A stretch of 64,000 nucleotides of DNA from Xanthostigma xanthostigma (Eukaryota > Arthropoda > Insecta > Raphidioptera > Raphidiidae), in NCBI GenBank assembly GCA_963575645.1, contig OY754467.1:23271001-23335000 (forward strand), written 5' to 3'. This document shows, piece by piece, positions 3,562 to 61,098 of the stretch. The notes beneath the pieces were generated by a model, which was given only the letters and a program-made list of their open reading frames with translations, was not told where the DNA came from and searched no databases. The first letter of the stretch is position 1. Each line of letters starts with the position of its first letter. The translations under genes were made by a program, and so were the position numbers.

Positions 3562-5775
3562 GTGACGTCACTCTAAATCCAATATGGCGGACTTCTAAAG
3601 ATGGCGGACTAATTTTATTATGCTTTCCTACAATATGGGTATCAAATGAAAGGGCTTGCTGAGAATAACTCTAAAAATAAAGTGACGTCACTCTAAATCC
3701 AATATGGCGGACTTCTAAAGATGGCGGACTAATTTTATTATGCTTTCCAACAATATGGGTATCAAATGAAAGGGCTTGCTGAGAATAACTCGAAAAATGA
3801 AGTGACGTCACTCTAAATCCAATATGGCGGACTTCTAAAGATGGCGGACTAATTTTATTATGCTTTCCTACAATATGGGTATCAAATGAAAGAGCTTGCT
3901 GAGAATAACTCGAAAAATAAAGTGACGTCACTCTAAATCCAATATGGCGGACTTCTAAAGTAGGCGGACTAATGTTATTATGCTTTCCTACAATATGGGT
4001 ATCAAATGAAAGGGCTTGCTGAGAATAACTCGAATCATAAAGTGACGTCACTCTAAATCCAATATGGCGAACTTCTAAAGATGGTGGACTAATTTTATTA
4101 TGCTTTCCAACAATATGGGTATCAAATGAAAGGGCTTGCTGAGAATAACTCGAAAAATAAAGTTACGTCACTCTAAATCCAATATGGCGGACTTCTAAAG
4201 ATGGCGGACTAATGTTATTATGCTTTCCTACAATATGGGTATCAAATGAAAGGGCTTGCTAAGATTAACTCGAAAAATAAAGTGACGTCAGTCTAAAACC
4301 AATATGGCGGACTTTTAAAGATGGCGGACTAAGTTTTTTATGCTTTCCTACAATATGGGTATCAAATGAAAGAGCTTGCTGAGAATAACTCGAAAAATAA
4401 AGTGACGTCACTTTAAATCCAATATGGCGGACTTCTAAAGATGGCGGACTTATTTTATTATGCTTTCCTACAATATGGGTATCAAATGAAAGGGCTTGCT
4501 GAGAATAACTCGAAAAATAAAGTGACGTCACTCTAAATCCAATATGGCGGACTTCTAAAGATGGCGGACTAATTTTATTATGCTTTCCAACAATATGGGT
4601 ATCAAATGAAAGGGCTTGCTGAGAATAACTCGAAAAATGAAGTGACGTCACTCTAAATCCAACATGGCGGACTTCTAAAGATGGCGGACTAATTTTATTA
4701 TGCTTTCCTACAATATGGGTATCAAATGAAAGAGCTTGCTGAGAATAACTCGAAAAATAAAGTGACGTCACTCTAAATCCAATATGGCGGACTTCTAAAG
4801 ATGGCGGACTTATTTTATTATGCTTTCCTACAATATGGGTATCAAATGAAAGGGCTTGCTAAGAATAACTCGAACCATAAAGTGACGTCACTCTAAATCC
4901 AATATGGCGAACTTCTAAAGATGGCGGACTAATTTTATTATGCTTTCCAACAATATGGGTATCATATGAAAGCGCTTGCTGAGAATAACTCGAAAAATAA
5001 AGTTACGTCATTCTAAATCCAATATGGCGGACTTCTAAAGATGGCGGACTAATGTTATTATGCTTTCCTACAATATGGGTATCAAATGAAAGGGCTTGCT
5101 AAGATTAACTCGAAAAATAAAGTGACGTCACTCTAAATCCAATATGGCGGACTTCTAAAGATGGCGGACTAATGTTATTATGCTTTCCTACAATATGGGT
5201 ATCAAATGAAAGGGCTTGCTGAAAATAACTTGAAAAATAAAGTGACGTCACTCTAAATCAAATATGGCGGACTTCTAAAGATGGCGGACTAATTTTATTA
5301 TGCTTTCCTACAATATGGGTATCAAATGAAAGGGCTTGCTGAGAATAACTCGAAAAATAAAGTTACGTCACTATAAATCCAATATGGCGGACTTCTTAAG
5401 ATGGCGGACTAATTTTATTATGCTTTCCTACAATATGGGTATCAAATGAAAGGGCTTACTGAGAATAACTCGAAAAATAAAGTAACGTCACTTTAAATCC
5501 AATATGGCGGACTTCTAAAGATGGCGGACTTATTTTATTATGCTTTCCTACAATATGGGTATCAAATGAAAGGGCTTGCTGAGAATAACTCGAAAAATAA
5601 AGTGACGTCACTCTAAATCCAATATGGTGGACTTCTAAAGATGGCGGACTAATTTTATTATGCTTTCCTACAATATGGGTATCAAATGAAAGGGCTTGCT
5701 GAGAATAACTCGAAAAATAAAGTGACGTCACTCTAAATCCAATATGGCGGACTTCTAAAGATGGTGGACTAAGTT
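3562..5775. repeat. Minisatellite, 120-bp unit, about 18.5 copies
   Basis: The period is exactly 120 bp with no drift across 2.2 kb. Each unit opens with GTGACGTCACTCTAAATCC, carries two ATGGCGGAC segments about 20 bp apart, and ends GAGAATAACTCGAAAAATAAA. Of 19 unit starts, 15 keep TGACGTCA; those at 4162, 5002, 5362 and 5482 are mutated. Because 120 is divisible by three, long reverse-strand open frames arise as by-products. Variants shared at an 840-bp spacing show a seven-unit block duplication. Confidence 0.95.
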
Positions 5776-5959
5776 TTTGACGTGATAACGTCTTATAAAT
5801 TGATGAAACACCAGCTGCACGCACGAAAAAGTGTAACGTTCCGCCTGACTCTGTGCGCGCAAGCGAGAGCGCAGTAATGTATTATTAAATATGATATTCG
5901 AGCGGAATACGTTATCACGTAAAACTATCGTCCGTAAACCGACTTTACAGACATCCAAT
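5776..5959. repeat. Non-repetitive segment bounded by an inverted ACGTGATAACGT motif
   Basis: The array stops at GACGTGATAACGTC and about 125 bp later the complement TACGTTATCACGT occurs, enclosing a relatively GC-rich stretch (GTGCGCGCAAGCGAGAGCGC). This may be a terminus of the element that hosts the array. No gene is seen. Confidence 0.4.
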
Positions 5960-29946: not shown

Positions 29947-32055
29947 ATACACCGCTGAGGCTTCACACTTCTGAATATACTTTATAGCGTTATGACAGTT
30001 ATGATTTTCTATGTAGGTGGTCTGCGTGCGGCCATCATTACTGCTTGATCTTGCATCGCTACCATCGCTGCTTTTAATGTTACTGCTACGAAATTAGCAT
30101 TAGCTACACGTCAATGCAGAACTGTATCAGCTGATCGGAAGCATTAATTAACATTCCAGTCTATAATAGATTAGATAAGATTGTGGATGCTCGACAACTG
30201 AGGTCATTAGCGTCTAATTCAGTCTATAAAATCAATTTCTTTTCATTTCACATGCATCTTACTCATTACTTAGCATTTACATTAGTATTTCTTGAGGCGT
30301 TATCAAATGTCACATAAGACATTTTGACGATGTTTCGGCTGCAGACATTGTTCTTTAATGCAAGAACAACGTCTGCAGCCGAAACATCGTCAAAGATAAA
30401 AGTTTATAAAATTAAGAAATTTGTTCTACTTTATGCAAGATTTCAGATTTAACAGACAAATGCTTAACGTTAGAGATTCCGTTGATATTGAAACGATTAG
30501 CTTTGGACTTTTTCGGATAAGCTCACGTAATCGTCTCGTAATATAATTTAAACTATTTGTGCTAAGTATTGAGACAATTAAATAAATAAATTTTAATAAA
30601 ATTAATAAACAATTTAAAATATTTATTTTGAATGTTTTATTATAAAATTGTGAACAAGATATCTTAGAATGTACACACAGAAAATTTCTGATATCTTAAT
30701 GTGATTGGAATTGACAAAGTGAAAAATAATCAATTAAACGACACATGCAAAAAGAAATTTGGATCGGTAGATCACTAAGTACTCCATATTCTCCCTGATG
30801 TGGTTTAAAGGAAATATTTCAGCACTTTTTCACAGCTTATTTTAATACATTCTATTTCAACCTTTTAAAACCTACTGCCTTTTTTCAGACAAAAAACATA
30901 TTTTTTTCTTTATTTCACGGCGTTGTTCAACATGCCAAAACCAAAATTGACACGCGCCGTGACAAAACAAATAGACAAGTACAGTAAATATCCAATTCTA
31001 ATTATTACTTCTAAACTACGTACAATGTAATCTAAAAGTTTTGAATCGTTACAATATAAATAAGATATGTGAAAATAATAAAATTCTTTTCTATCATATC
31101 TAGCTTCTAATAATTAAAATATACATTAATTTTTGACGAAGGGATTGATGTCCAACAAATTAAATGTGAAAAATATTTATAAGTTGCACATTCCTGCCTT
31201 AAAGTGTTATCATTTATTAAAGTTGCCTACACATAAACGATAATATAATAGGTATGTCCAGTGAAAATAAACGGCTTCCTGTCATACAGAATGCTGCTGA
31301 CTGATTGATCTCGATCGCAATCTGACAGATGTGCTATAATAATCTGTATTGTTGTAATGGATACCAACGCGGAAACGTCTATTGTTACTCCACCAGCGAT
31401 CGTTGTCGTCGTCTTAACTTACCTAACTTCATATAACACTGTTTATTGTTGTTTTTTATTTTGGTTCTAACTTTTCAATGTAACTTAATTTTCTTTTGTA
31501 TTTTTTTCCTTGTAATGGAGCTCGGTAATCACGCTTTATTTGATGTTAACACGATAGTCGTATTACATAAAGTGTTTTACTTTTTTCGTGCAGAATATTT
31601 AAGAACATTTAAGCATCTTATGCTAGTATGGAAAAATAAATATTTGTCTTACTTGTTTTTTGTAACTTTTCAAAGAGTTTTATATTCTGCCTTTATTTGT
31701 TTATGTTGATAACTACTGTTTGTAATATCGCCGAGATTGACTGTAAAATACTTTGGTGTAGATATTTACCAGCCAGTCGGTTTTGCTTTCAAGTCTTCTC
31801 AGGATAAGTTTTTTTTCAAATTTCGTGATCGTATCGAATCTAATTCAATAAACATACTTCAGTAGCGCTGATATAATTTCCTCCGTCTTCGTAATATTTA
31901 CTATAAAAAGACTAGACCCGAGTCCAAAGCTGTCAAATGCATTTATTGAAATATATTCAAAACTATCAAGAAGCTTAAATAAATAATTTAAACACAAAAT
32001 TAAAGAATTAATTGAATGAATATCTAACAGTTTGTGTGTATATTTATATTTTCAG
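29947..32055. other. Non-coding sequence upstream of the first visible exon, probably intron
   Basis: The exon at 32056 starts in mid-codon after an acceptor, so this must be intron unless a missed exon lies in it. The hairpin at 30323-30394 is listed separately. No other exon is convincing. Confidence 0.5.
30323..30394. repeat. Near-perfect 72-nt hairpin
   Basis: A 24-bp perfect stem (TTTGACGATGTTTCGGCTGC ... GCAGCCGAAACATCGTCAAA), one mismatch, then an inner stem TTGTTCTT/AAGAACAA and a 6-nt loop. It may be a minimal transposon derivative or a hairpin RNA precursor; the sequence cannot distinguish these. Confidence 0.6.
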
Positions 32056-32635
32056 ATTTCATCCCAATGGCTCAGCAAACCAAATTGTTAACCAGCACTG
32101 CAATCAACAAACCCGTTTGCCCAGTGAACAGGCGGAAAATGATCACGTGCTGAAGATGATGTCCGCACGATCAACGCCGAACCTGCAACAACCGGCGTCA
32201 CCTGGCAGGCCTCCACCACCTCTGCCCAACGAACACAGTACAACAGCAGCACCTCAACAGCCCCAGCAGCAGCAACAACAACAACAACACACCTACTGCT
32301 CCTATTTACAACATACAACAGTGACGTCACTACAATTAACATCATCAGTAACATCACTGACGACGTCCTTGACGGACGATGAATCGTGTCCTCCACCTAC
32401 ACCCGTTCGAGACGCGTCGAGTCTCAAAGCGGTCAAGTACGGTCCTGGACACGAGAAGTTTCCATCGTGGCCCGTTCCGGCAGCAGCTGATGCTCCGCAA
32501 GTATTGCGAGGGCCTCCAAGTGGAGGATCGCACAGATCGAAGTCTTGGACCGACCACACCAACTATCCAAAGGAGAAGGTTATAGCGTATACGAGACCCT
32601 ACATGAAGCGACCAAATTCAGCTTATTCACAGCAG
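32056..32635 (+). CDS. Exon of a Shroom-like cytoskeletal adaptor gene (tentative), visible exon 1
   Basis: Begins after the acceptor TTATATTTTCAG and ends at the donor CAG|GTACCT. It supplies the third base of a split codon and then 193 complete codons (phase 0 at the end). The protein is low-complexity: PGRPPPPLP, a glutamine tract (about eight CAR codons in a row) and a Thr/Ser-rich stretch, followed by a more ordered-looking part with HRSKSWTDHTNYPKEK and AYTRPYMKRPNSAYSQ. GC content and codon use contrast sharply with the flanks. Proline motifs of this kind bind SH3 or EVH1 domains. Assignment to the Shroom family (actin and Rho-kinase adaptors at apical junctions) rests mainly on visible exon 3 and is tentative; another insect scaffold protein is possible. 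No start codon lies in the window. Confidence 0.7.
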
Positions 32636-33368
32636 GTACCTAGTCATTTTTATAAGTGTTATATAAAATATTACGAAACTTAAGAAAAAAGCTCATATAA
32701 ATGCGGCCACTTAAGCTTGATGTTTAAGTGGTATTTCAATAACTTTGTATTGTTAGAAGTGACTATACATATGTTACATTGTGTACCTAGTACCTACTGA
32801 CTTTATTATTTTATACACTATTGTTGTACAAGATTCATTTTTGCTGCATGAATCGTTTGGTTTACTTTAAAAATTAATTGGCAATATTCAACAGTTTCGC
32901 GGTTTTCAGAAATTACAATAAAAAATAATTCGTTATGTCATAAAAATATAGCATTGAAAATTTATTATTAATATGATCTCGTACTTATACTGTGCACATT
33001 TTTATAATTTTTGAGAATATTATTTTTTTTATCTAGAGTTCTGTAATATCTCGAGCTATACGATCTCGGAGTTACGCGGTTGCTTATTTTCCTCTCATGC
33101 TTCGCCTCTAACATACCACTTGAAGTACTCCGCCCGCATTTCATTAGTACCCCGAGCTACGGGAATTTGTTCTACGTGATCTTTATCAGTCCCATCTATC
33201 GCGTAACTTCGGGATATTACTGTAAATAGACTAAACCCCATTACTATTGAGAACAAATCCCACTATACTCAAGAGTTCTCGATTTAGAAATTCTGAAGTT
33301 TTCATTCCTGCCAAAAAACAAATATGAATTAAAGTTTAAAATAATTTTACAAAAACTTCTACTTCCAG
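32636..33368 (+). other. Intron (733 bp) with a small MITE
   Basis: GT-AG intron in phase 0. At about 33041-33224 CTGTAATATCTCGAG and, on the other strand, CAGTAATATCCCGAAG form terminal inverted repeats of a short non-coding MITE, with GTTACGCGG/CGCGTAAC pairing inside. Confidence 0.65.
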
Positions 33369-34159
33369 AAACTAAAAACAGTAATGGAACGATGTGAGAA
33401 GATCCCAGCCGAAGCGTACGAAGTTAGACGAGAAATGGACGAGCGATTATATTTGCCTCGCGTAGATCGCGAAGGCAAGCCAATAGGCGACATGGACTAC
33501 ATGGTACCGTCACCTCCCGAACGCGACATACAACAAAACAAACCTCAGCTGAATCAGTCCGATCTCGAAGAATACGCCCGCTCCTACCAAGACCAGCCGT
33601 CGCTTCAACATTTGACGCAAGCCGATCTTGAAGAATACGCCAGATCTTACGATGAAGCTTTAACACACCAGCACCAGAAACAACCGTCGTATGCGCAAAG
33701 TGAAGGCTACCATAGCTACGTTTCAAGTACAGATTCGATGTCGACTCCGTTCCTCGACAGGTTACGGCGTGATAGCGAAGCGGTCAGAGTTTGGGACGAA
33801 CCTCCCGAACGGGAGCGAGACGCCGGACGTCATGAAGGTCGGGATAGTGTCGTCACGACGAGTTCCGGCAGTGCGTCGTCGAGCGAGACGTTGAAATGGC
33901 ACGGATCAATGAGCGATGTTTCGGTGGCGAGCAGTTCTTGTACACAACATCCGTCGTCAAGACAACTGATAGCGCACAGTGCGCGCGTCCAGACGCCGCA
34001 ACGTCACAATTCGGAAAGCGTTCTCTATATTAATCCAAATTCAGCAGCCGAACAAGGAGGATGGAAGGAACGTGAGAATAGAAATAATCACCAGAATAAA
34101 TTGAGACTGTTTCCGGTCAATACTTATACCGTTCAACCAGTTGAATCGTTGCATCACAG
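33369..34159 (+). CDS. Exon of the Shroom-like gene, visible exon 2
   Basis: Begins after CTACTTCCAG and ends at CACAG|GTAATT. It continues from the previous exon in phase 0 with KLKTVMERCEKIP and ends two bases into a codon. It encodes 263 complete codons. Visible features are a charged helical start (EAYEVRREMDERLYLPRVDR), a tandem pair of DLEEYARSY motifs about 29 residues apart, a motif YVSSTDSMSTPFLDRLRRDS, and long Ser-rich stretches (SSGSASSSETLKWHGSMSDV). Ser-rich adaptor sequence like this is commonly phosphorylated, which is inference. The open frame covers the whole exon. Splice sites and phases agree with both neighbours, so I am confident that this is coding even though the family is uncertain. 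Confidence 0.75.
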
Positions 34160-36022
34160 GTAATTTTCAATTTACAGAATTTACTAAATGTCTATATTTA
34201 CGACATATCAAAGTAAATTAAGATTCAATCTCAAATTGTCGATAAATACGGATGACTCTGATAAGGCATGTTGGTGCAAGCGATCATATAACAATTGGTG
34301 TTTGTAGCAAATGACGACAAAGATCGTACTCTTCCAAAAAATTGTTGATCGCGACTTTAAAATTCATCAGATCAAATGATTACATTACGAACAAAATTTC
34401 TAGTTTAGAAAAACCGACATTTTCTCGATTATTTTCACATACTAAATAGACGGAGGTATCGAGTTTTACACCATATTATTGTTTCAAAATTCGAAAAAAA
34501 ACTAATGATTTTATAGGGCAATATGATTGAAATAATAGGGCAAATATAATACTTTCAACTCGGTTCATTGAAAAGTATAACAATACATCCTCGTTGAAAA
34601 TTACCCAGAAACAAACGAAATTCTCTTTTACCAGTAAACACAGTAAAAAATAAACAATTACGAAAACGCGATTTGATAAAAAATAGGTAACAATTTATCA
34701 TTTTTTATTCACTTTTTGCAAAATTTGAAAACCTAACATATAAAATTCAATATAATATAAATACATTATAAATTTTAAAAAAATGTATTGCATTGTATCC
34801 TGTTGCACCTCATTTGAAAGGTGTCAATTCTTTTCACACTTAATTAAATAATCTAAAATCTAGCCATTAGATTTTTGATTTTATAAACAAAATATGCACT
34901 TATAACTAGAAAACAGATGATTGTTAGTTCCTCTCTAGTGATAAATGTTTTTATTAATAGGCAGATTAAAAAAAGAAATCAAATCGAATATTTTAATGAA
35001 ACACCGAACAACAAAGAAAATATAATAATGGAACCCTATTAGGGCTAAGAAGAGTACGAAACAGCCGATACCTACTAGTCGGGTAAAACATATTTAAGTT
35101 TTAGTATAGGTAACATCAAATGTTTTTACTAATGTTTAACTTATTGAAAGATTGTTTTATATTTTAGTAAGCTTCACAGGGCCGAATTTCCCATAAGGTC
35201 ATGTAGGCTCGCGCCTAGGGCGGTAAATTTTTTAGGGACGGCAAACATCAGAGTTGAAAAAATATAAAGTCAAGTCAAAATTTTTTTGCGATCACGTAAT
35301 TTCATTAACTAAATTTTTTCAAGCAAATACTGATTTTTTTCCAATTTTCAATTTGAATTTCCCGCTGAGAATTAGCTTAATACAAACCTCCATGCAACTG
35401 ACATGAAAAAAAAAAACTCAGTGAGACCTCAATTAGAGGAGCGGCACAATTTACTCTGCCTAGGGGTGGCCAAATTGTAAATCCGGCCCTAAAGCTTCAG
35501 CCGGTTTTCTATAGTTGAAGTGTCTGTCTGTAATGTCTAAATAACGGTCACTTTTTGAGATAACACGGTTATTTTCATGCTATCAGAACGTAAACGGCCG
35601 TTTGTAAAATTTTGTCTTTCTGTCTGTCTGTCCCGGCTAATCTTTGAAAAGACTGAATCGATTGTGATAGCACTTCACAGACAGTTTAAGGACTATGCCA
35701 AAAGTGATCTTGGCAAGTGTTAGATAGTGTTTGAATATGAATTGGAGTTGTGATGTATAAAAATCGGAATAAAAAAGGTTTATACCTATATACTAAGAGT
35801 TTTTAATAGTTTTGCAAAAATTGTTTTTCAATATTAAGGCGAGAATAACGTTATTTAGCTAAATCGTCTATATACACTCGCATTGTCTGTCAATCTCTGC
35901 ATCACGGTTTTTTAGACCTAGCAATATTTTTTTAATTTTAAATAGATAAACTATAGAAATATGTTTAAATACTTTTAATGAGTTTCAATCACAATTACAA
36001 ATGAATTAATATTTGTTTCCAG
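34160..36022 (+). other. Intron (1863 bp) containing a hAT MITE and a repeat relic
   Basis: GT-AG intron in phase 2. It contains the hAT-type element 35177-35491 and, at 35835-35920, a diverged copy of the module at 2702 and 6733. The rest is AT-rich with nothing recognisable. Confidence 0.6.
35177..35491. mobile_element. hAT-type MITE with 8-bp target duplication
   Basis: AAGCTTCA flanks both ends (35169-35176, 35492-35499). The termini are CAGGGCCGAATTT and, on the right, AAATCCGGCCCTA, nearly inverted. The 8-bp duplication and CAGGG start fit the hAT superfamily. 315 bp, non-coding. Confidence 0.8.
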
Positions 36023-37498
36023 ATTAACACCTCAGTCGCCAACTCAGCCGTCATTGTCAGTCGCGGATCGCGTAAGTGAATTAGAACGTCAACAACAAAT
36101 GATGAGATATACCTACTTAGATCCAGACAAAAAACACCGGGTGTCTGACCCTACGCTCAAGGCCATTCAAAAGAAAGCCCTGCTATCATTTTACGAACGT
36201 CATCACTCAGCAGTACCAACTAAAAGTCAATCGTGGAGATCCGAACCACAACTTGCTCAACCGGCAGTTGCCAAAGCCCAGTCACCGCCTCCACAGCCAC
36301 CACCAAGACCAAGAGCACATCCAGCATCAAGAAGAGCGTCTTCAGCATCAGATTATGCAAAAGGATCTTGGCGAGACAATTTGTCTTTAAAGCGCGAATC
36401 ACAGAATCAAGAAACACTAAAAGATAGTCCAAGACATCAACATAGTAACAGTTGCGGATCACTATCAAGTGATCTTTTAGGTCCTGTTATAGTGGGACCA
36501 TCTATATCAATTGATGATTGGGTACCAGAAAGGCCTCCGAAAAATCCACATTTAAGATCTGCTTTCCCGGACTTATTTATAGATCAGCGAGTTCCGAGTC
36601 CAGATTTACCTCCACCGTCGCCGCCTATGGTATTAGAAAATGAAGTGTTTAATAGTGACGAACCATTGCCACCTCCTCCGCCTGAATTGGAAAATCCAGA
36701 TTGGCAACGTAACAAAAATATCAAAGAAAGTGGTATGACTCACAGTAGACAGTCTTCTGAGAGTACTATAAGTGACAATATATCGAATCAACGATCGCGC
36801 TGTAGTCCGCCGAAAACGCTTGCCATTCAACAGCAAGAAAGACGTAGCGCCGAACCTCAAGTTAGACATTCAGAATCCCAAGTTAGACATAGCATATCCG
36901 GTCGTAACACGGAAGTTCGCGGTTCGTGTAGATATCGCCCAAGTTCTGCTGTTCCGCATTCAAGTCAACAAAAACATTTATCAAGATCACCTCCCGAAGA
37001 AAAACCGACACGAAGAAGTCTTTATCCGTTCGTCAGATCAACGTCGTGCGAAACTGATACTGAACACGGTCAGTGCGTCGGATTTGCCACACATCGACAA
37101 ATACCGACCGAAAGAGCCAGTTTAAGATATTCGTCCACTCAGAAGATAATGATGAATGGAAGAGTATCGATAGCCGTTAGCCAAAAGATAAGAAATAGTG
37201 TTTCCGGACAGTTTAGGGCTGAGCCTTTAAGAGCGCATCATATTTCTAAAAGACCACCAGCACAATTACCGGAGGATGAGAGCAATAATAACAGCAGAGC
37301 GCAAGGACAAGTTCCGGTCCACGAACAAGATAATCAGAAGAGGAAGCCTTTGACGAGGAGTGATAGTCAATCTTCACAGATCCAACCGCCTCCTTTACAG
37401 CCGAGGAGGCTAAATCAGAGTTTGAGAACGAGACATGAAAATATCCAAGAAGACAGTCAACAGGACGGGCGCGATAACAGACAGCCATTACAACAAAC
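36023..37498 (+). CDS. Exon of the Shroom-like gene, visible exon 3
   Basis: Begins after TTTGTTTCCAG, completing an Arg codon, and ends at CAAAC|GTAAGT. It has 491 complete codons and leaves two bases for the next exon. Near its start lies the most family-like segment: SVADRVSELERQQ (coiled-coil-like), TYLDPDKKHRVSDPTLKAIQ and KKALLSFYERH. Proline-rich ligand motifs follow (SPPPQPPPRPRAHP, PDLPPPSPP, PLPPPPPELENP), then a Ser/Arg/Gln-rich tail with a duplicated EPQVRHSESQVRHS segment. I associate the SDPTLKAIQKKALLSFYERH region with insect Shroom proteins from memory, without an alignment. A C-terminal Rho-kinase-binding ASD2 module would be expected further downstream and is not in the window. 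No stop codon is reached, so the gene continues. Confidence 0.75.
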
Positions 37499-40121
37499 GT
37501 AAGTATTTCAAATTTCTATAATATTTACACGTTTTGAATGACCAAAATTAAAGAAGTTGAAAAATTGTCTTCTGAAATGTTGCCCTCATATTATGAACTA
37601 CTAAGCTGCTGCATAGATAAATTATGAAAATCCTTAGGTACTTGATCGCGCGACTATTGGTAGATTGAAATTTAATTCAGACGGTCCCCTGATGACTTGA
37701 TATAAGTTTTTGCTTAATTTATCGTAATATAAACTTTAATTTTTTTCCCTGTATAAAATCTTGTGTAGGTATATAAATAATTTATATGTTAAACAGTCGT
37801 ATAATTTACATTAGTGATATGGAATGAAAATTCAAAAAGTCCAAGCATTGAATTTAAGAAAAATTAATTTACTTACTTTTAAGTTAACTAAAATATTTGT
37901 GGTTTTAATTAAATTTTAAATAGTTCATCAGTACAATAAAGTGAACAAAAGTAGTTTTTTTTGACCTTGTGTTAATAATAACATTGGGTTAATCGAAAAG
38001 TGAAGTCCCACCAAATCTGATTTATTTATTAGTAGAGACAAATATTTTTTTTTCTTTAATTATGACACAAAAAAGCATATACTGTATACTAATAATTATT
38101 ATTCTTCGATTAGGTGGAAAAATTGGCAATATTATGCGCACCATAAAGAGATAAAAATTTCAATGCCAAATGTTCTATTAATTTAATAACTGGTGTTAGG
38201 GTGTGCAAAGCATTAATTAGTTAATTGCGAACTGGTAGAATTTTAATGCTTATCGATTTTACTGAACATTTTGTATAAATAAAGCTTGCAATGTCGTCTA
38301 ACTATAACACTGACATTTTGTGCTATGTTTTAAAACAGTACAGTTATTAATTTTAAATTACGTGGTTGCATATCCGCGTATTGCAGCCATAAATTAAAAT
38401 AGAGAAGCTAAATGTCAAATGCAAAGTGATTTCAGTAAGACTTAATCACATTATAAGTGCAAATAGTGATTGTCTTATCATCATAATTGATTTATAATTT
38501 ACAATTTACTTGAAAACCTTGAACCAATTTTCCAAAATTCAATTACATACATCCAGCTATAACCTGGATTTCTCTTTCAGTTATCGGTAAAACATTATCT
38601 ATTCTTATAAAAGCAAATATCGTTTAAAGATTTTCCTGCATAATTGTATTCTGAAATTCGAATTATTATGTATATATCGGAAATCATTATATTTATATGT
38701 AGGGAATACGACACTGTGACTTAAATAATAAAAATTATCACAGTTATCAGGTAGCAACTAAATTAGCATTTTTCATAGTAAAAACATTTGGAATACCCTG
38801 AAAGGTGCCACTTCAACTTTCATTTTTATGACCCTAGAAAATGTTTGACACTACAAAACTAAAAAAAAAGATCTGTACTGTGACAATTTAACTAGGAGCA
38901 ATAGCTAGGTATGGCCTACCTAACATTCTGTCCTGTTCGCGAAAGGTTGTAGGGGGCAAGCCATTACTATATTTACGTAATTGTTTGATAGCACAAACAA
39001 AATGTATACTTACCAATATCTGTAACAAGCAAATGATTGGAAAAAATACAATAAAAACAGCAACATGAAGTGTGTTGTTCAATGAGCGACAATGCTGATA
39101 ATAGTTGGCGGTTGGCTTTACTGTAATCACTGCTCCCCCACGCGGCTTACATCATTATTATTAGTGTTTTATCCATGTGGCGTCGATTGGATGGCGGGAC
39201 CTATGGGTCGGTCAAAAATTCTTGACGTCTTATAGCCTCCTGAAAAGTTTCGCGCCATTATTGAAAATGTTTCTATATATTAATTTGTCTGTATGTGTAT
39301 CACTGTATACTATATATATTTGCATGTTCGGGTAATAACTTTAGAGAGTTAATTGATTTTGAAGAACTTTAGTTCATGTGCTGAAATCCACAACCGCACG
39401 AAGCCTATTTAAAATAGACGGGCCATTTTTAAGAAATATTTTAAATATCGAAAAACTTGTGAAAATTGAGTTTTAACCTATTAGTAGAGATTAAAATGTG
39501 TCACTAAAACTTTATTAAAAGTTTGCAGATACGGAATTATTTACTGAATAGTGTATTTAATTTGGTTTTGATATTGGATTGACAATAATATTGCAGTCAA
39601 GAAAATAATATTATTTTAAGGGGTGATTAAGGGGCAAACATTTTTATTTTGTCTAAAAACACAGTTTCAATAATAAAGCTACAATACCTGTATTAGCAAA
39701 TAGAATACACTATATTGTTGGCAGGGTTTTGACACTGCGACTCTAGTTCTTACAATTACGCTTCAAAATCATAATAATTCGCTAATGGTATAGAAATAGT
39801 TGCGGTCACCTCCGATTTACGATCGATGACCATAACATAGTAGTTAATGATTTCGATTAAAAATAAGTACGTCTGTATCGTACATAAATTGAACTAACTG
39901 CCGGTGTTTAAATAAGCCTTTAATGATTATTTATCGAGTCATTAGATGAGTGCACGTAATTTGCACATATTGTTTGCTCTGCATTTCCTTTTGTAGACTT
40001 TGTTAACTGTGCTTAGACGACATAATGGGTTGTTTTAGATTTTTTTGAAAGAAAATGGCGTTTATTCATTGCTAATAGAAGCGAGAACCAGAAGATTTAT
40101 GTTTTCTTTATGCTTGCTTTA
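37499..40121 (+). other. Start of a very long intron
   Basis: Opens with the consensus donor GTAAGTATTT. No further convincing exon was found in the remaining 26.5 kb. AT-rich, with nothing bounded before the Helitron. Confidence 0.5.
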
Positions 40122-54215: not shown

Positions 54216-54326
54216 CAACAAATGTTATTTTTATTTTTTTAGAGATACAAATCACTCGATTAATTTTTGTTTAACAATCATATATTATAAATAAAATTTT
54301 TGAATATTTTATCAGACAAATTATAG

Positions 54327-55249
54327 TGTTAACGTTTGGTAGCCAACGACGGAATTGTTATATCCCACCGCTGCTACCCGCACGCCGTAGTCGACCAATC
54401 AAATCAGAAAAGTCATACCACGTGCGTACGGTATTTAAAAAAGGGACGGGTTCTGTCCCTAGCGGATCTTTATCGTTGTTCAGTATTGGTAGCGTATTAA
54501 AAGTAAAGCTTCATCACACGAGATCAGATATGTACAATGGTTTATTTACAAGAATGAAATTTACATTAACTACGAGTATACAAAATATATAATAACTACT
54601 TCTAACAAATTCTTAATTCCCTATAATATACTATTATGCAGTGGTAGACATTGCTGCAAGCAGTGTCTAACCTACCGAACTACGAAACCCAAAATGTACT
54701 TACATGATAATCTTCGACAACCAACTTCAACGACCGATGAGCAAAGACTGAATGATCAGTAAATGAATGATGAATAGTGAATAATGAATGAACAAATGAT
54801 TAAATGAATGAACAACAATTAATGAATGAATTTTCGCCGCGTTCTGCCCTTTTCTCAAAATTACCCCACTCTTAACTTGTCTGCGAGCGCATGCCTTCAA
54901 CCAATCGCAAACGGGCATGTAATCGCGTTGCGCCTGCGTAGTTAGTTATACTGATTTTAAGGGGTTGAGATAGGGGGGTTCTACGAATTCTGTTGGTTTT
55001 TATGACCTGACCTTCGAAATAGATACCATGTATGTTTCCATTGTTTTCCGTATCAACTAAAGTAAATATTTACGTCTTGGGTTCATTTGGATTTCGCATT
55101 CTACTCTTATCTCTAATTTTCTCTATATTCTTTGAAAAAAAACCCTTAATGTATTTTTAGTCCAGTGGCGTACCAGAGATTTTTATTCTTCCACTGTATA
55201 ATAATGTTAAAAATATGTTTTGGCGTCGCCCGGTTTGGCGCCGTTAACA
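54327..55249 (-). repeat. 3' LTR
   Basis: 923 bp, TG...CA ends. It includes a short AATGA/TGAATGA-rich microsatellite at about 54763-54830. On the - strand TATATATTTTG (about 54592) lies about 45 bp before AATAAA (54546-54541), a plausible TATA box and poly(A) signal bracketing R. The promoter reading is inference. Confidence 0.9.
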
Positions 55250-55263
55250 CCACTCCCCCCTTA
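55250..55263 (-). other. Polypurine tract
   Basis: On the - strand TTAAGGGGGGAGTGG directly precedes the 3' LTR; this is the plus-strand primer site of an LTR retrotransposon. Confidence 0.8.
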
Positions 55264-55532: not shown

Positions 55533-56067
55533 CTATTTCGGGTTATGTCGTGATGTGCCGGCGTCTCTTGCAGCTGGATTATTACACCCTTGTACGGTGT
55601 CACGGCTGGTTCCGGTCGGGCTGCTGCTGGCTCTGGTAGATTTGAGAACTCGGGCGGTCGCTCGGTGGGTGGATCTTGCTGTCGTTGCATCGCCTCGGGT
55701 GTAGCTAGTGATCAGCTTGGTCGTTGCTTCTTTGCTGATCGCGTTGCTGAGGTTTATAACTTGTAGGTTTGTCGGAGTACGCGACAAGCTTCTTGTCAGC
55801 GTGTTTACTATGGCTTGGCGCTCGACGTCGAACTCTCCTCTCACTTGGGATGCGTGAGAGTACCTCCCGCAGTGTGTGACTTGTCGTTGGACCTCCACCT
55901 TTGGACGATCCGTGTAGTCGGCGACTTGCAGTAGCTGTATGTATGCTTCAGCCTACTAGATATTCTTCACCTGGTATTGACAGTCTTTTATCTCCAGTAG
56001 TGATATCGTCGTAATGTTTGACCGCGACCCCGCACAACACCGTTAATATTAAATTCTCGTACATCAT
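55533..56067 (-). pseudogene. Env-like remnant (degenerate)
   Basis: Between pol and the polypurine tract, where env sits in env-bearing Ty3/gypsy elements. An ATG at 56067 begins a short frame with a hydrophobic, signal-peptide-like start that ends at a TGA near 55945. A second frame contains an AYIQLLQ and a CGRYSHAS motif that I associate with the N-terminal part of insect retroelement envelope glycoproteins, and continues open to 55533. That frame carries two adjacent TAG codons at about 55956 upstream of AYIQLLQ. The rest of an envelope (fusion peptide, transmembrane anchor) is not seen. It is truncated and broken, so a functional product is not expected. Family assignment is from memory and moderate at best. 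Confidence 0.45.
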
Positions 56068-56737: not shown

Positions 56738-58849
56738 TTAGATTCTTCTTCTGAGCACCCATGGTGCGTCAGGTGCTGGCCCTTGACTGCGTGTATGATA
56801 CCCCTCGGTTCCGCTTCGGCTTGGTGTCCGATGGCTCGATGGTGCCTCGGCAATCGGCGTGTCGTCTTCGGCGTCGTCACTGCTGCTATCGGACCCTGCG
56901 GCGCTAGGCGAAGGCCTCCAGGTGCTCCACTGAGGTCCCGCTTGCGGGGTGGACGGAGGGTCGGTTTGGTTGTTACCTTCGCTAGGATGTGGTCCTTCTC
57001 CGTTGTCAGCAGGCGCTATCAAAATTTCAAATTGCGCTGGCAACTCCTCCTGCTTTGCTAATCTGTAAATCCGAATAATTATTTTTGTCCCTTGGAATAC
57101 TTCCTGAATCATCTCTTTAACTCTTTCCCAACTCAGCCCGTCTAGACCAGTGCCTATTCGCGGCATAGCCAGTTTAGTCGCGTGCACCCTTCTCATATGG
57201 TCCCTCATTGCAATTAGCGAATTGCGTAGATTCGCTAAGGTGGGTTTATGGTAGTACCCTTGTTTGGTCACTAGATAATATATATACCGGTCGCGATCCT
57301 TCAGCCACACTACATTACCAGGTTGTGGTGTCTGTTTCTTCAGTTCGTCTGTCTGACCAAACTTTCGGCGGAAGCACGCGGCGATACCCTGCCCCATCTT
57401 CAAGTCTGCTGACACGCAATGTGCCAACGAATAGTCCCCCGGCGCTGTAAAAAGGTCCCCGACAACCTCGGTAATGTCGGGCGGGCCTGTCTCCTGAGCG
57501 CTTCGCGGCTCGCGGGCTGTTGAAACTTCTCCCGGGCCTTCTTCGGTTGCGGCGTCTGCTGCGCTCGCACTGCACTTCTTCAGTCGGTTTGCGTGTACCA
57601 CTTGCGTCGCACCTCTCTTGACGTGTTTTATTTTGAAGGTCACCGGTCCCTTCTGCTCGGTGATCACATATGGGCCTACCCATGGTCGCGTTAATTTCTT
57701 CGACCGGTGCAGCTGATTGCTCGGGTCGTGTAAATACACTCTGTCGCCTACCTCGAGGCTAATCTCCTTAAAGCGCTTGTCGTGTTGGACAGTCGTCAAA
57801 ACTCGCGCTGCCAAAATTCCGTGCACTGGAATTTTGACTGGCTCGATGAGTAGGGACTTCTTGGGCTTTCCAATTTGTTGTCTCGCTTGGCACACACACT
57901 CGGTTCGGGCGGGAATTTTGAGGGCCTCTTTCAGCTCTACAAAAGGTCTGCCAACCTTCTGCTCGCTGTCGTTCGGGCACCATGGCAGTGGCGCCGACGG
58001 CGAGTCTTCTAGATCCCCTCCGCATTTGAGTGTTGTGGCTGCTCGACTTCCAGTGTCTAGCCCATTTCGCGCTCCTACGGTAGTACATCTAATATTTTCA
58101 CGTACCTGTTTAAAACTTCTGAAAATTTTTGATTTTGCGGCCCCGTCATTACTTGCTCGTTTGTTGTTCCGCGACCCCTTTTCGTCACGTATGTTCTGGC
58201 TGTGCTGCGAACCCCCATTATAGCGTTTATTCTTCTTTACTCTTCCCCCGGCATTACATATGGCGTAAATTTTGTCAAGTTCACCTTCTGCATACAGTCT
58301 TTCTGGCACCCCGTTTAAATAGATCGTGCCGTTTCCCATATCTATCATACCCTGGTGTTCCTGTAAAAAGTCACGGCCCAAAAGTCCGTCTACGTCTATC
58401 GGTAACTTGTCGCACACTACGAATAGTGACTGCAGCGTCCTGTCGCCGATAATCAAATTGACCTCCACGGTTCCTCTGCTTTCCAACTCGTGCCCCGTAA
58501 TGCTTGTTAGTTTAATGTTATTATTGTACTCACCTGTACACCCCGGTATTACTACTGGCTTGATGATAGACACTGCCGAGCCTGTGTCCACCATCAAACG
58601 TATGGTTTGTGATCCCACCTCCGCGAACAGAATATGTGGAACACCCCTGCGATATTGTGCATTGATATGTATCACCGTCTCGCGCTTGTCCGCGCCTCGG
58701 GTTGGGGTAGTCTGTCCGAAGTGCGACTTGCGTTTAAAGACCTCTCCTGCTGAGTTTGTGCTGTAGCTTCGTGCTCTAAATGTCGCGACCTTTCTTCTGG
58801 TGGCGGCGCTTGTGGACGTCGCGCCCGCAGCTGAGGCGGCTGGCTCCAC
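56738..58849 (-). CDS. Pol frame: retropepsin, integrase C-terminal module, TARG1-type macrodomain
   Basis: Open for 703 codons if counted from the GTG after a stop at 58850-58852; translation is expected by -1 frameshift from gag at about residue 37. Domains: retropepsin about 60-190 (VDTGSAVS at 87-94, GLLGRDFL at 155-162); the post-protease linker to ARVL at about 351; then an abrupt switch to the integrase C-terminal module (VGDRVYL at 367, WVGPYVI at 390, HANRLKK at 419). A macrodomain follows at about 458-597 with VGDLFTAP, SLAHCVSADLKMGQGIA, YYLVTKQ and AMPRIGTGLDGLSW. Lys529 and Asp570 align with the catalytic Lys and Asp of human TARG1 (K84, D125). A Ser/Asp-rich tail ends at 703. 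Reverse transcriptase, RNase H and the integrase core are deleted in frame at about 57780-57800. GC-rich compared with the surroundings. Confidence 0.85.
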   Translation of the reverse strand: MEPAASAAGATSTSAATRRKVATFRARSYSTNSAGEVFKRKSHFGQTTPTRGADKRETVIHINAQYRRGVPHILFAEVGSQTIRLMVDTGSAVSIIKPVVIPGCTGEYNNNIKLTSITGHELESRGTVEVNLIIGDRTLQSLFVVCDKLPIDVDGLLGRDFLQEHQGMIDMGNGTIYLNGVPERLYAEGELDKIYAICNAGGRVKKNKRYNGGSQHSQNIRDEKGSRNNKRASNDGAAKSKIFRSFKQVRENIRCTTVGARNGLDTGSRAATTLKCGGDLEDSPSAPLPWCPNDSEQKVGRPFVELKEALKIPARTECVCQARQQIGKPKKSLLIEPVKIPVHGILAARVLTTVQHDKRFKEISLEVGDRVYLHDPSNQLHRSKKLTRPWVGPYVITEQKGPVTFKIKHVKRGATQVVHANRLKKCSASAADAATEEGPGEVSTAREPRSAQETGPPDITEVVGDLFTAPGDYSLAHCVSADLKMGQGIAACFRRKFGQTDELKKQTPQPGNVVWLKDRDRYIYYLVTKQGYYHKPTLANLRNSLIAMRDHMRRVHATKLAMPRIGTGLDGLSWERVKEMIQEVFQGTKIIIRIYRLAKQEELPAQFEILIAPADNGEGPHPSEGNNQTDPPSTPQAGPQWSTWRPSPSAAGSDSSSDDAEDDTPIAEAPSSHRTPSRSGTEGYHTRSQGPAPDAPWVLRRRI
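57059..57478 (-). other. TARG1/OARD1-like macrodomain segment of Pol
   Basis: About 140 residues covering a complete OARD1-type macrodomain. TARG1 removes ADP-ribose from glutamate through a covalent lysine intermediate. The ADP-ribose-binding GDLF, the SLAHCVSAD loop, the MGxGIA loop, the catalytic Lys (codon 57263-57265) and the catalytic Asp (57140-57142) are all present. The segment is uninterrupted and in frame with the rest of Pol. Activity is inferred, not shown. Confidence 0.85.
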
Positions 58850-59742
58850 CTATTTGGGCCTCGTTGCGTGACGCCATTGCCTTGGGCACGTTTTTTTGAG
58901 TAGCACTCTCTCTCCTGGTGCCCCGATTTTTTGCAATAGCGACACACTACTGCTGCTTTACAATCGCGTCTCATGTGTCCCATCCTAAAACAATTAAAAC
59001 ATTCCATATTTGTCCCGCTACTTACCTGCCTGTCCATGGTGTGCGCTCGTTGTTTTGGTGCTGCCGGCTGCCAGTCTGTGTCCGGTAATACGGCCTGGAC
59101 TGTGCCCCGCGTCGTGTCCAATAATGCTCGATGTAGTTCAGCCTGTTCCGCTATAGCCGCTGCGGTGTCGATCGTAAGACCATCTTGAAGCGTGAGAGTG
59201 ATGCCGATTGTCTGTTGCATTTCTCGCTTCAACCCGACCTTGAACTGTGTTAGTATGTCGCGCGCATTCATACGCTCTATCCCTGGTTTTTCAGCTTCAG
59301 TGGCTGTCTTCAGTTCTTCGTCTAGCAGATCTTGTCCCGCTAATTTCACTCTTGTCGTGAATTGGCGAACTGTTTCCGTGGCCTTTTGGTAAACCTGAGA
59401 AAGCTTAAATCGCGCCACCCCGGGTATTGTCGGTGGTTTAAAATGGTTGATCAAAGAAGTCTTTACCTGCTCGTAAGTGGCGGATGCCAATTTTGTATCG
59501 CTGCGATAGTATTGGTATGCACTTTCGCTCAGTTTGCACCTCAATACTTTCACCAGTTGTTCGTTCGTGATCCCGTCCAATTCTGCTCTTTGTTCCAATC
59601 GCTCAAAATATTCCGCTACTCTTTCTTTACCTGTGAGAGGTTCTATCGTATTCGCGAAACTGCCTAGCATGACACGCGGCATTTGCACCGTAACTACTTG
59701 TGGGCTAGTGCTATCACTCGACACTCTAGATGGCGTGGCCAT
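58672..59742 (-). CDS. gag: Gag (capsid plus two-zinc-knuckle nucleocapsid)
   Basis: 356 residues from the ATG at 59742. Residues about 30-210 form the capsid-like part, including PLTGKERVAEYFERLEQ and YQKATETVRQFTTRVK, the helical retrotransposon-gag pattern. Two CCHC zinc knuckles lie at 248-261 (C-F-N-C, G-H, C) and 267-280 (C-R-Y-C, G-H, C), followed by a basic, Gln/Arg-rich tail. It assembles the particle and packages element RNA. The last 66 or so bases overlap the translated pol frame through the frameshift site at residues about 336-338. No stops or frame damage, which agrees with recent mobility. Confidence 0.88.
   Translation of the reverse strand: MATPSRVSSDSTSPQVVTVQMPRVMLGSFANTIEPLTGKERVAEYFERLEQRAELDGITNEQLVKVLRCKLSESAYQYYRSDTKLASATYEQVKTSLINHFKPPTIPGVARFKLSQVYQKATETVRQFTTRVKLAGQDLLDEELKTATEAEKPGIERMNARDILTQFKVGLKREMQQTIGITLTLQDGLTIDTAAAIAEQAELHRALLDTTRGTVQAVLPDTDWQPAAPKQRAHTMDRQVSSGTNMECFNCFRMGHMRRDCKAAVVCRYCKKSGHQERECYSKKRAQGNGVTQRGPNRWSQPPQLRARRPQAPPPEERSRHLEHEATAQTQQERSLNASRTSDRLPQPEARTSARR
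58732..58738 (-). other. -1 ribosomal frameshift site (U UUA AAC)
   Basis: The - strand heptamer T TTA AAC lies in gag phase as TC[T TTA AAC], exactly as X XXY YYZ slippage requires. After slipping, reading enters the pol frame (FKRKSHFG), which stays open into the protease. A GC-rich segment follows (GGCGCGGACAAGCGCG, about 25-50 bases downstream) that could fold into a stimulatory stem. The gag stop at 58672 is 60 bases on. Confidence 0.85.
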
Positions 59743-60152: not shown

Positions 60153-60170
60153 CCCATACCGCTGCCACCA
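60153..60170 (-). other. Primer binding site, tRNA-Leu type
   Basis: One base after the 5' LTR the - strand reads TGGTGGCAGCGGTATGGG. TGG plus TGGCAGCGGT complements the 3' end of animal tRNA-Leu with acceptor GG(T/C)AGCG. Other tRNAs with this acceptor are possible. Confidence 0.65.
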
Positions 60171-60171
60171 T

Positions 60172-61094
60172 TGTTAACGTTTGGTAGCCAACGACGGAAT
60201 TGTTATATCCCACCGCTGCTACCCGCACGCCGTAGTCGACCAATCAAATCAGAAAAGTCATACCACGTGCGTACGGTATTTAAAAAAGGGACGGGTTCTG
60301 TCCCTAGCGGATCTTTATCGTTGTTCAGTATTGGTAGCGTATTAAAAGTAAAGCTTCATCACACGAGATCAGATATGTACAATGGTTTATTTACAAGAAT
60401 GAAATTTACATTAACTACGAGTATACAAAATATATAATAACTACTTCTAACAAATTCTTAATTCCCTATAATATACTATTATGCAGTGGTAGACATTGCT
60501 GCAAGCAGTGTCTAACCTACCGAACTACGAAACCCAAAATGTACTTACATGATAATCTTCGACAACCAACTTCAACGACCGATGAGCAAAGACTGAATGA
60601 TCAGTAAATGAATGATGAATAGTGAATAATGAATGAACAAATGATTAAATGAATGAACAACAATTAATGAATGAATTTTCGCCGCGTTCTGCCCTTTTCT
60701 CAAAATTACCCCACTCTTAACTTGTCTGCGAGCGCATGCCTTCAACCAATCGCAAACGGGCATGTAATCGCGTTGCGCCTGCGTAGTTAGTTATACTGAT
60801 TTTAAGGGGTTGAGATAGGGGGGTTCTACGAATTCTGTTGGTTTTTATGACCTGACCTTCGAAATAGATACCATGTATGTTTCCATTGTTTTCCGTATCA
60901 ACTAAAGTAAATATTTACGTCTTGGGTTCATTTGGATTTCGCATTCTACTCTTATCTCTAATTTTCTCTATATTCTTTGAAAAAAAACCCTTAATGTATT
61001 TTTAGTCCAGTGGCGTACCAGAGATTTTTATTCTTCCACTGTATAATAATGTTAAAAATATGTTTTGGCGTCGCCCGGTTTGGCGCCGTTAACA
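60172..61094 (-). repeat. 5' LTR
   Basis: 923 bp, TGTTAAC...GTTAACA, offset from the 3' LTR by exactly 5845 bases along its whole length, with no difference found by eye. Supplies the element promoter. Confidence 0.9.
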
Positions 61095-61098
61095 ATAG

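Follow-up and report, generated by a model that had tools for sequence, protein, structure and literature searches.

A predicted TARG1/OARD1-type macrodomain in the Pol of recurrent Ty3/gypsy-type elements of Xanthostigma xanthostigma

Macro domain reading frames in fish epsilon-like endogenous retroviruses are said to have been noted by Basta et al. in 2009. A later account (PMC4977317; papers are cited here by accession and from excerpts) gives the macro domain of these viruses as additional open reading frames, and it is by that description alone that we know it. Coronaviruses, alphaviruses and hepeviruses encode an ADP-ribose eraser of their own, whose macrodomains are described as a separate clade (PMC6397177). 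The cellular enzyme TARG1 (also OARD1 or C6orf130) belongs to the ALC1-like class, whose hydrolases are minimal and without extensions (PMC7050489), and the OARD1-like proteins of insects are long cellular ones. The domain that we describe here differs from both in that it is part of a retroelement Pol. It is encoded at 57059..57478, on the minus strand, of a 64,000-nucleotide stretch of the genome of Xanthostigma xanthostigma (contig OY754467.1, positions 23,271,001 to 23,335,000; hereafter the window), within a long terminal repeat (LTR) element of apparent Ty3/gypsy type.

The domain occupies residues 458-597 (140 residues) of an uninterrupted 703-residue frame at 56738..58849, minus strand, in which Pfam recognises, in order, a retropepsin (RVP, 58343..58624, E 1.8e-07), the integrase C-terminal module Integrase_p58_C (57575..57676, E 1.6e-11) and Macro (E 1.2e-05, 25.7 bits with a cut-off of 22). 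A first-pass annotation had read the three domains in one open frame and placed the macrodomain at the right coordinates; the coding strand is minus, and the plus-strand frame opposite the macrodomain has stops. The best PDB match is human TARG1/OARD1 (4j5q and others), aligned over 139 of the 140 residues at E 6.2e-41 and 142.6 bits, and the next distinct macrodomain is 5m31, which we take to be DarG, at E 5.6e-08 and 35.9 bits. A profile built from 16 element domains ranks the PDB in the same way (TARG1 at 1.4e-53 and 183.8 bits versus 1e-10 and 44.9 bits), and none of its 11 matches is named as viral, going by match names in a listing that does not give organisms. Lys529 (codon 57263..57265) and Asp570 (codon 57140..57142) align with K84 and D125 of TARG1. 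The human chain has Asp at position 125; PMC6397177 gives the residue as D125 and PMC7050489 as Glu125. The HCxS loop is common to both domains, and the window domain contains the published TARG1 pattern, TKx(30,35)Px[IL]GxGxD (PMC6397177). Across the genome the Lys and Asp are found in 77 of 77 readable loci of the 78 examined, counting the window and a likely host gene, L048 (the unreadable locus, L082, is cut off), and the pattern occurs in 56 of the 67 loci tested, L048 included and 11 further loci lying outside the test. By these sequence comparisons Pol residues 458-597 are a TARG1/OARD1-type macrodomain with both catalytic positions filled, as had been proposed.

The fusion is not a peculiarity of the window. 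With the domain as query and a threshold of E 1e-5, the 623-Mb source genome gave at least 88 matches (99 candidates were scored, and match counts are lower bounds). Twenty-one complete domains, the window counted once, are 96-100% identical, with one further match partial; their frames are of 1578 residues (nine copies), 703 (eight), 701 (one), 542 (two) and 534 (one). When the domains that were complete enough and without stops were clustered at 80%, they fell into at least 11 element families and the one likely host gene. The first-pass annotation had held that a fusion occurring only in this copy would count against it; because the fusion recurs in many copies and families, with open 1578-residue frames among them, this is not the case. 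Chance resemblance or a private copy is rejected as well, given the strength of the match to TARG1 and the many copies in the genome. We also considered whether the window might hold a host gene beside which a retroelement has inserted, or an assembly artefact, and insects do have long OARD1-like proteins. We give this reading practically no credence: the same fusion stands at many places on different chromosomes, LTRs flank it in two relatives as well as in the window copy, which also has a target duplication, and L048, which is closest to insect proteins (66% to P0026, from Cryptotermes), has its domain split in two by about 960 bp, as an intron would do.

Protein searches locate the fusion in other public datasets too, in 18 element proteins. 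The domain follows the integrase in P0041, P0044, P0051 and P0058 (the last Aromia moschata by name, and without reverse transcriptase (RT) or RNase H in Pfam), follows the protease in P0050, and lies between RNase H and integrase in P0031 and P0062-P0071 (7 of the latter 10 were scanned); partial domains precede the protease in P0035 and the integrase in P0061. The catalytic Lys is kept in all 18 and the Asp in 17. In three macrodomain trees of only 140 columns the element domains need 3, 3 and 4 label changes, and a single common origin is not rejected by the approximately unbiased (AU) test (p 0.456 in the second tree, from which L041 was left out, and 0.303 in the third). The trees have long branches for L041, P0031 and P0050, do not include eight host proteins that were near-duplicates or any match of fewer than 110 residues, and label P0033 and P0059 as host, a label that is unsure. 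They fit one capture or several, and we leave the choice undecided. We note that P0059 has its macrodomain beside a GDSL-lipase-like domain and that P0060, from a mayfly, is called TDRD12 in its source. Macrodomain relatives are also encoded at 105 loci on viral contigs of IMG/VR, of which 80 were kept (L091-L170, 35-47% identity), a possible phage parallel.

The place of the domain within Pol is variable. Among the 11 families it follows the integrase in eight, so the description of a Pol ending in a macrodomain stands for these; in two it takes the place between protease and RT and in one that between RNase H and integrase, and there the description fails. Pfam scans of pieces of nine representatives (and of the deleted copy L011) put it after the integrase in six (L010, L030, L033, L039, L040, which also has a CCCH finger, and L042), between protease and RT in L004 and L043, and between RNase H and integrase in L041; for L033, L039, L040, L041 and L043 there was no Pfam Macro match at E 0.01 and the domain was placed by its match to the window sequence. 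The two protease-RT elements have integrases with 57% and 67% identity to that of the window family, so near relatives have the domain at different places, and it need not be tied to the integrase. The trait nevertheless marks a clade: among the 150 integrase matches listed (150 of 2154 candidates were scored), 56 of the 62 at 42% identity or more have a same-strand macrodomain match no more than 9 kb away, versus none of the 88 at lower identity.

These positions bear on what the domain does. Chromodomains at the integrase C-terminus guide integration in chromoviruses, and the macrodomain could likewise be a reader and tether that binds ADP-ribosylated chromatin or break sites and so guides integration; the eight families in which it follows the C-terminal module of the integrase would suit such a role. 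We judge it unlikely, since binding alone would not require the Lys and Asp that every readable locus has, and both the protease-RT elements, despite their similar integrases, and the RNase H-integrase type have the domain elsewhere. Both roles are possible; the conserved catalytic residues and the shifting position lead us to prefer a free enzyme, a hydrolase that would work in the particle, on complementary DNA (cDNA) or at integration, to a chromatin reader.

A second line of evidence comes from selection, which the first-pass annotation had suggested measuring. Pooled over the seven families with three or more copies, the ratio of nonsynonymous to synonymous rates (dN/dS) is 0.20 for the domain (bootstrap 0.14-0.29; 59 synonymous and 41 nonsynonymous changes, 970 codons), 0.66 for the tail that follows (25 and 60) and 1.24 for the linker (8 and 35). 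The contrast between domain and flanks gives a Fisher p of 4e-07, which is only a guide because the copies share ancestry. Purifying selection thus acts on the domain across the pooled families, and the domain is probably selected as an enzyme. That it might be a passenger, captured by chance and of no use to the element, is accordingly very improbable in our view: the flanks are near neutral where the domain is constrained, albeit in related copies that are not independent, and at least 11 families have it. Identical LTRs do leave little time since the last insertion, and within the family of the window copy the constraint on the domain barely exceeds that on the tail.

Taking these data together we lean, with modest confidence, towards the following explanation: the window element is a young, non-autonomous Ty3/gypsy-type copy whose Pol has captured a host TARG1/OARD1-type hydrolase and uses it as an active eraser. 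A -1 frameshift would yield the macrodomain as part of Gag-Pol, which would carry it into the particle, where the protease might free it. The active hydrolase would then strip ADP-ribose from protein Asp or Glu residues, or from the phosphorylated ends of nucleic acids, at the particle, cDNA or integration stage, and by doing so could keep host PARP enzymes from silencing or tagging the element. PARP-type antiviral defence had been named as a possible target by the first-pass annotation. The source genome does have at least four PARP catalytic-domain matches, which would suit such a target, though their presence makes no link to the element. More tentatively, and as a possibility rather than our expectation, the Pol hydrolase may serve an entire clade of insect retroviruses as its regular counter-defence, carried in the particle against ADP-ribosylated nucleoprotein, cDNA ends or target chromatin; the domain would have been shifted within Pol, or captured again, since it is the freed enzyme that matters.

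Several observations weigh against an active eraser. A TARG1 fold could bind ADP-ribose without cleaving it. The TARG1 pattern is missed by the nine copies of the G3 family and L041 (and by L045, for which only a partial stretch is available), and in its strict form it is found in only 7 of the 18 public element proteins, the type with the domain between RNase H and integrase lacking it except for P0031. In the window's own family the contrast in selection is weak, with dN/dS of 0.36 for the domain, 0.43 for the tail and 0.95 for the linker. The substrate could also be of another kind. Retroviral dUTPase is a metabolic helper, and the macrodomain might be one too, acting on a soluble metabolite such as O-acetyl-ADP-ribose or ADP-ribose esters rather than in counter-defence. 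TARG1 does cleave O-acyl-ADP-ribose esters (PMC7050489), yet there is no known reason for a retroelement to need such an activity, and we regard this reading as improbable.

We return to the captured, active hydrolase as the preferred reading. To our knowledge few LTR elements keep extra enzymes, and a selected ADP-ribose eraser in Pol would therefore be a sign that some step of host ADP-ribosylation holds them back. This suggests that spreading requires the elements to reverse a modification made by the host. A host ADP-ribosylation layer directed against retroelements is plausible, and it can now be tested, since the enzyme and its loss-of-function mutants are defined and natural copies are many. 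If the clade-wide counter-defence is real, ADP-ribosylation would restrict the retroelements of insects in a way that has so far gone unrecognised. The Pol macrodomain also offers a retroelement counterpart to the macrodomains that RNA viruses carry. The first-pass annotation knew of no LTR retrotransposon with this fusion, and our full-text searches of open-licence papers did not turn up a Pol-fused TARG1 domain among the matches listed, the closest being the macro domain reading frames of fish retroviruses (PMC4977317, in excerpt). We therefore call this an LTR element with a captured cellular enzyme, the Pol-fused TARG1 form being new in the literature searched.

The structure of the window element (all features but the target-site duplication on the minus strand) is that of a recent insertion. 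Its 5' LTR (60172..61094) and 3' LTR (54327..55249), aligned with each other, are 100% identical over 923 bp with TG...CA ends, and the target-site duplication ATAG flanks them at 54323..54326 and 61095..61098. A sequence resembling a primer-binding site, TGGTGGCAGCGG (60159..60170), adjoins the 5' LTR, and a polypurine tract, AAGGGGGGAG (55253..55262), lies 5' of the 3' LTR. The gag open reading frame (58672..59742, 356 residues) has CCHC zinc knuckles (Pfam Retrotrans_gag 3.8e-05, zf-CCHC 8.2e-07). Within its overlap with pol the heptamer TTTAAAC (58732..58738, gag codons TTA AAC) is in the right register, as assigned by hand, which makes a -1 frameshift to Gag-Pol likely. The Pfam scan detects no RT, RNase H or integrase core in the window Pol frame; the copy is therefore internally deleted, with the junction at about 57783, and it is non-autonomous. 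The LTRs, CCHC gag, protease and 4-bp duplication of the window copy are as in Ty3/gypsy elements (Metaviridae) and insect endogenous retroviruses, as are the RT, RNase H and integrase of its relatives, whose pieces have the order protease-RT-RNase H-integrase in Pfam; we file the element as Ty3/gypsy-type on this domain content and order. It differs from known members in the extra hydrolase domain and, in some families, in an env of the Monjiviricetes fusion type.

The deletion is shared by descent. The 120-bp stretch that spans the junction recurs at 99-100% identity in each of the 11 other deleted copies and in none of the nine full ones, where only its right half aligns, at 90-92%; a single deletion has thus multiplied. 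Of the 50 two-allele sites in the domain and the 700 bp that follow it, 38 are polymorphic among the full and among the 703-residue copies alike, and by the four-gamete test 406 of 1275 pairs of sites fail. The two classes have exchanged haplotypes by recombination. Such a mosaic fits template switching between co-packaged RNAs, and the deleted copies are therefore probably mobilised in trans by the full ones.

Of an env-like fusion glycoprotein gene between pol and the 3' LTR the window keeps no more than a remnant (55533..55952), recognised by DNA alignment with L010, whose own remnant matches Pfam Monjiviricetes_fusion at 2.8e-07. At this position a relative on C1 has a long frame for a Monjiviricetes-type fusion glycoprotein and LTRs 99.65% identical over 861 columns, the differences being three gaps. 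The sister copy on C4 (L030/L089, G000:C4:29499000-29506236) has instead a SINA-like frame with RING and zinc-finger domains, between identical 855-bp LTRs; its integrase core match is shortened. Anakin, a mosquito BEL-Pao element, has likewise captured a chuvirus-type glycoprotein as env (PMC7642597); it differs in its Pol superfamily, and the part of that text examined mentions no macrodomain. Gypsy fragments have been reported near Monjiviricetes-type glycoproteins, yet with no clear capture by Gypsy, in the excerpt of PMC10084718. We note that L008, L033 and L087, all Ty3/gypsy-type, have a frame for such a glycoprotein after pol (split over two frames in L033), and that the SINA-like frame has 41 matches in the genome, one of which adjoins another macrodomain match at C10:10.407 Mb. 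Elsewhere in the window, positions 3562-5777 hold a tandem array of 18.5 copies of a 120-bp unit with 95% matches, and three plus-strand open reading frames of 223, 259 and 482 residues at 32012-37502, which have no Pfam match at E 0.1, are perhaps exons of a host gene.
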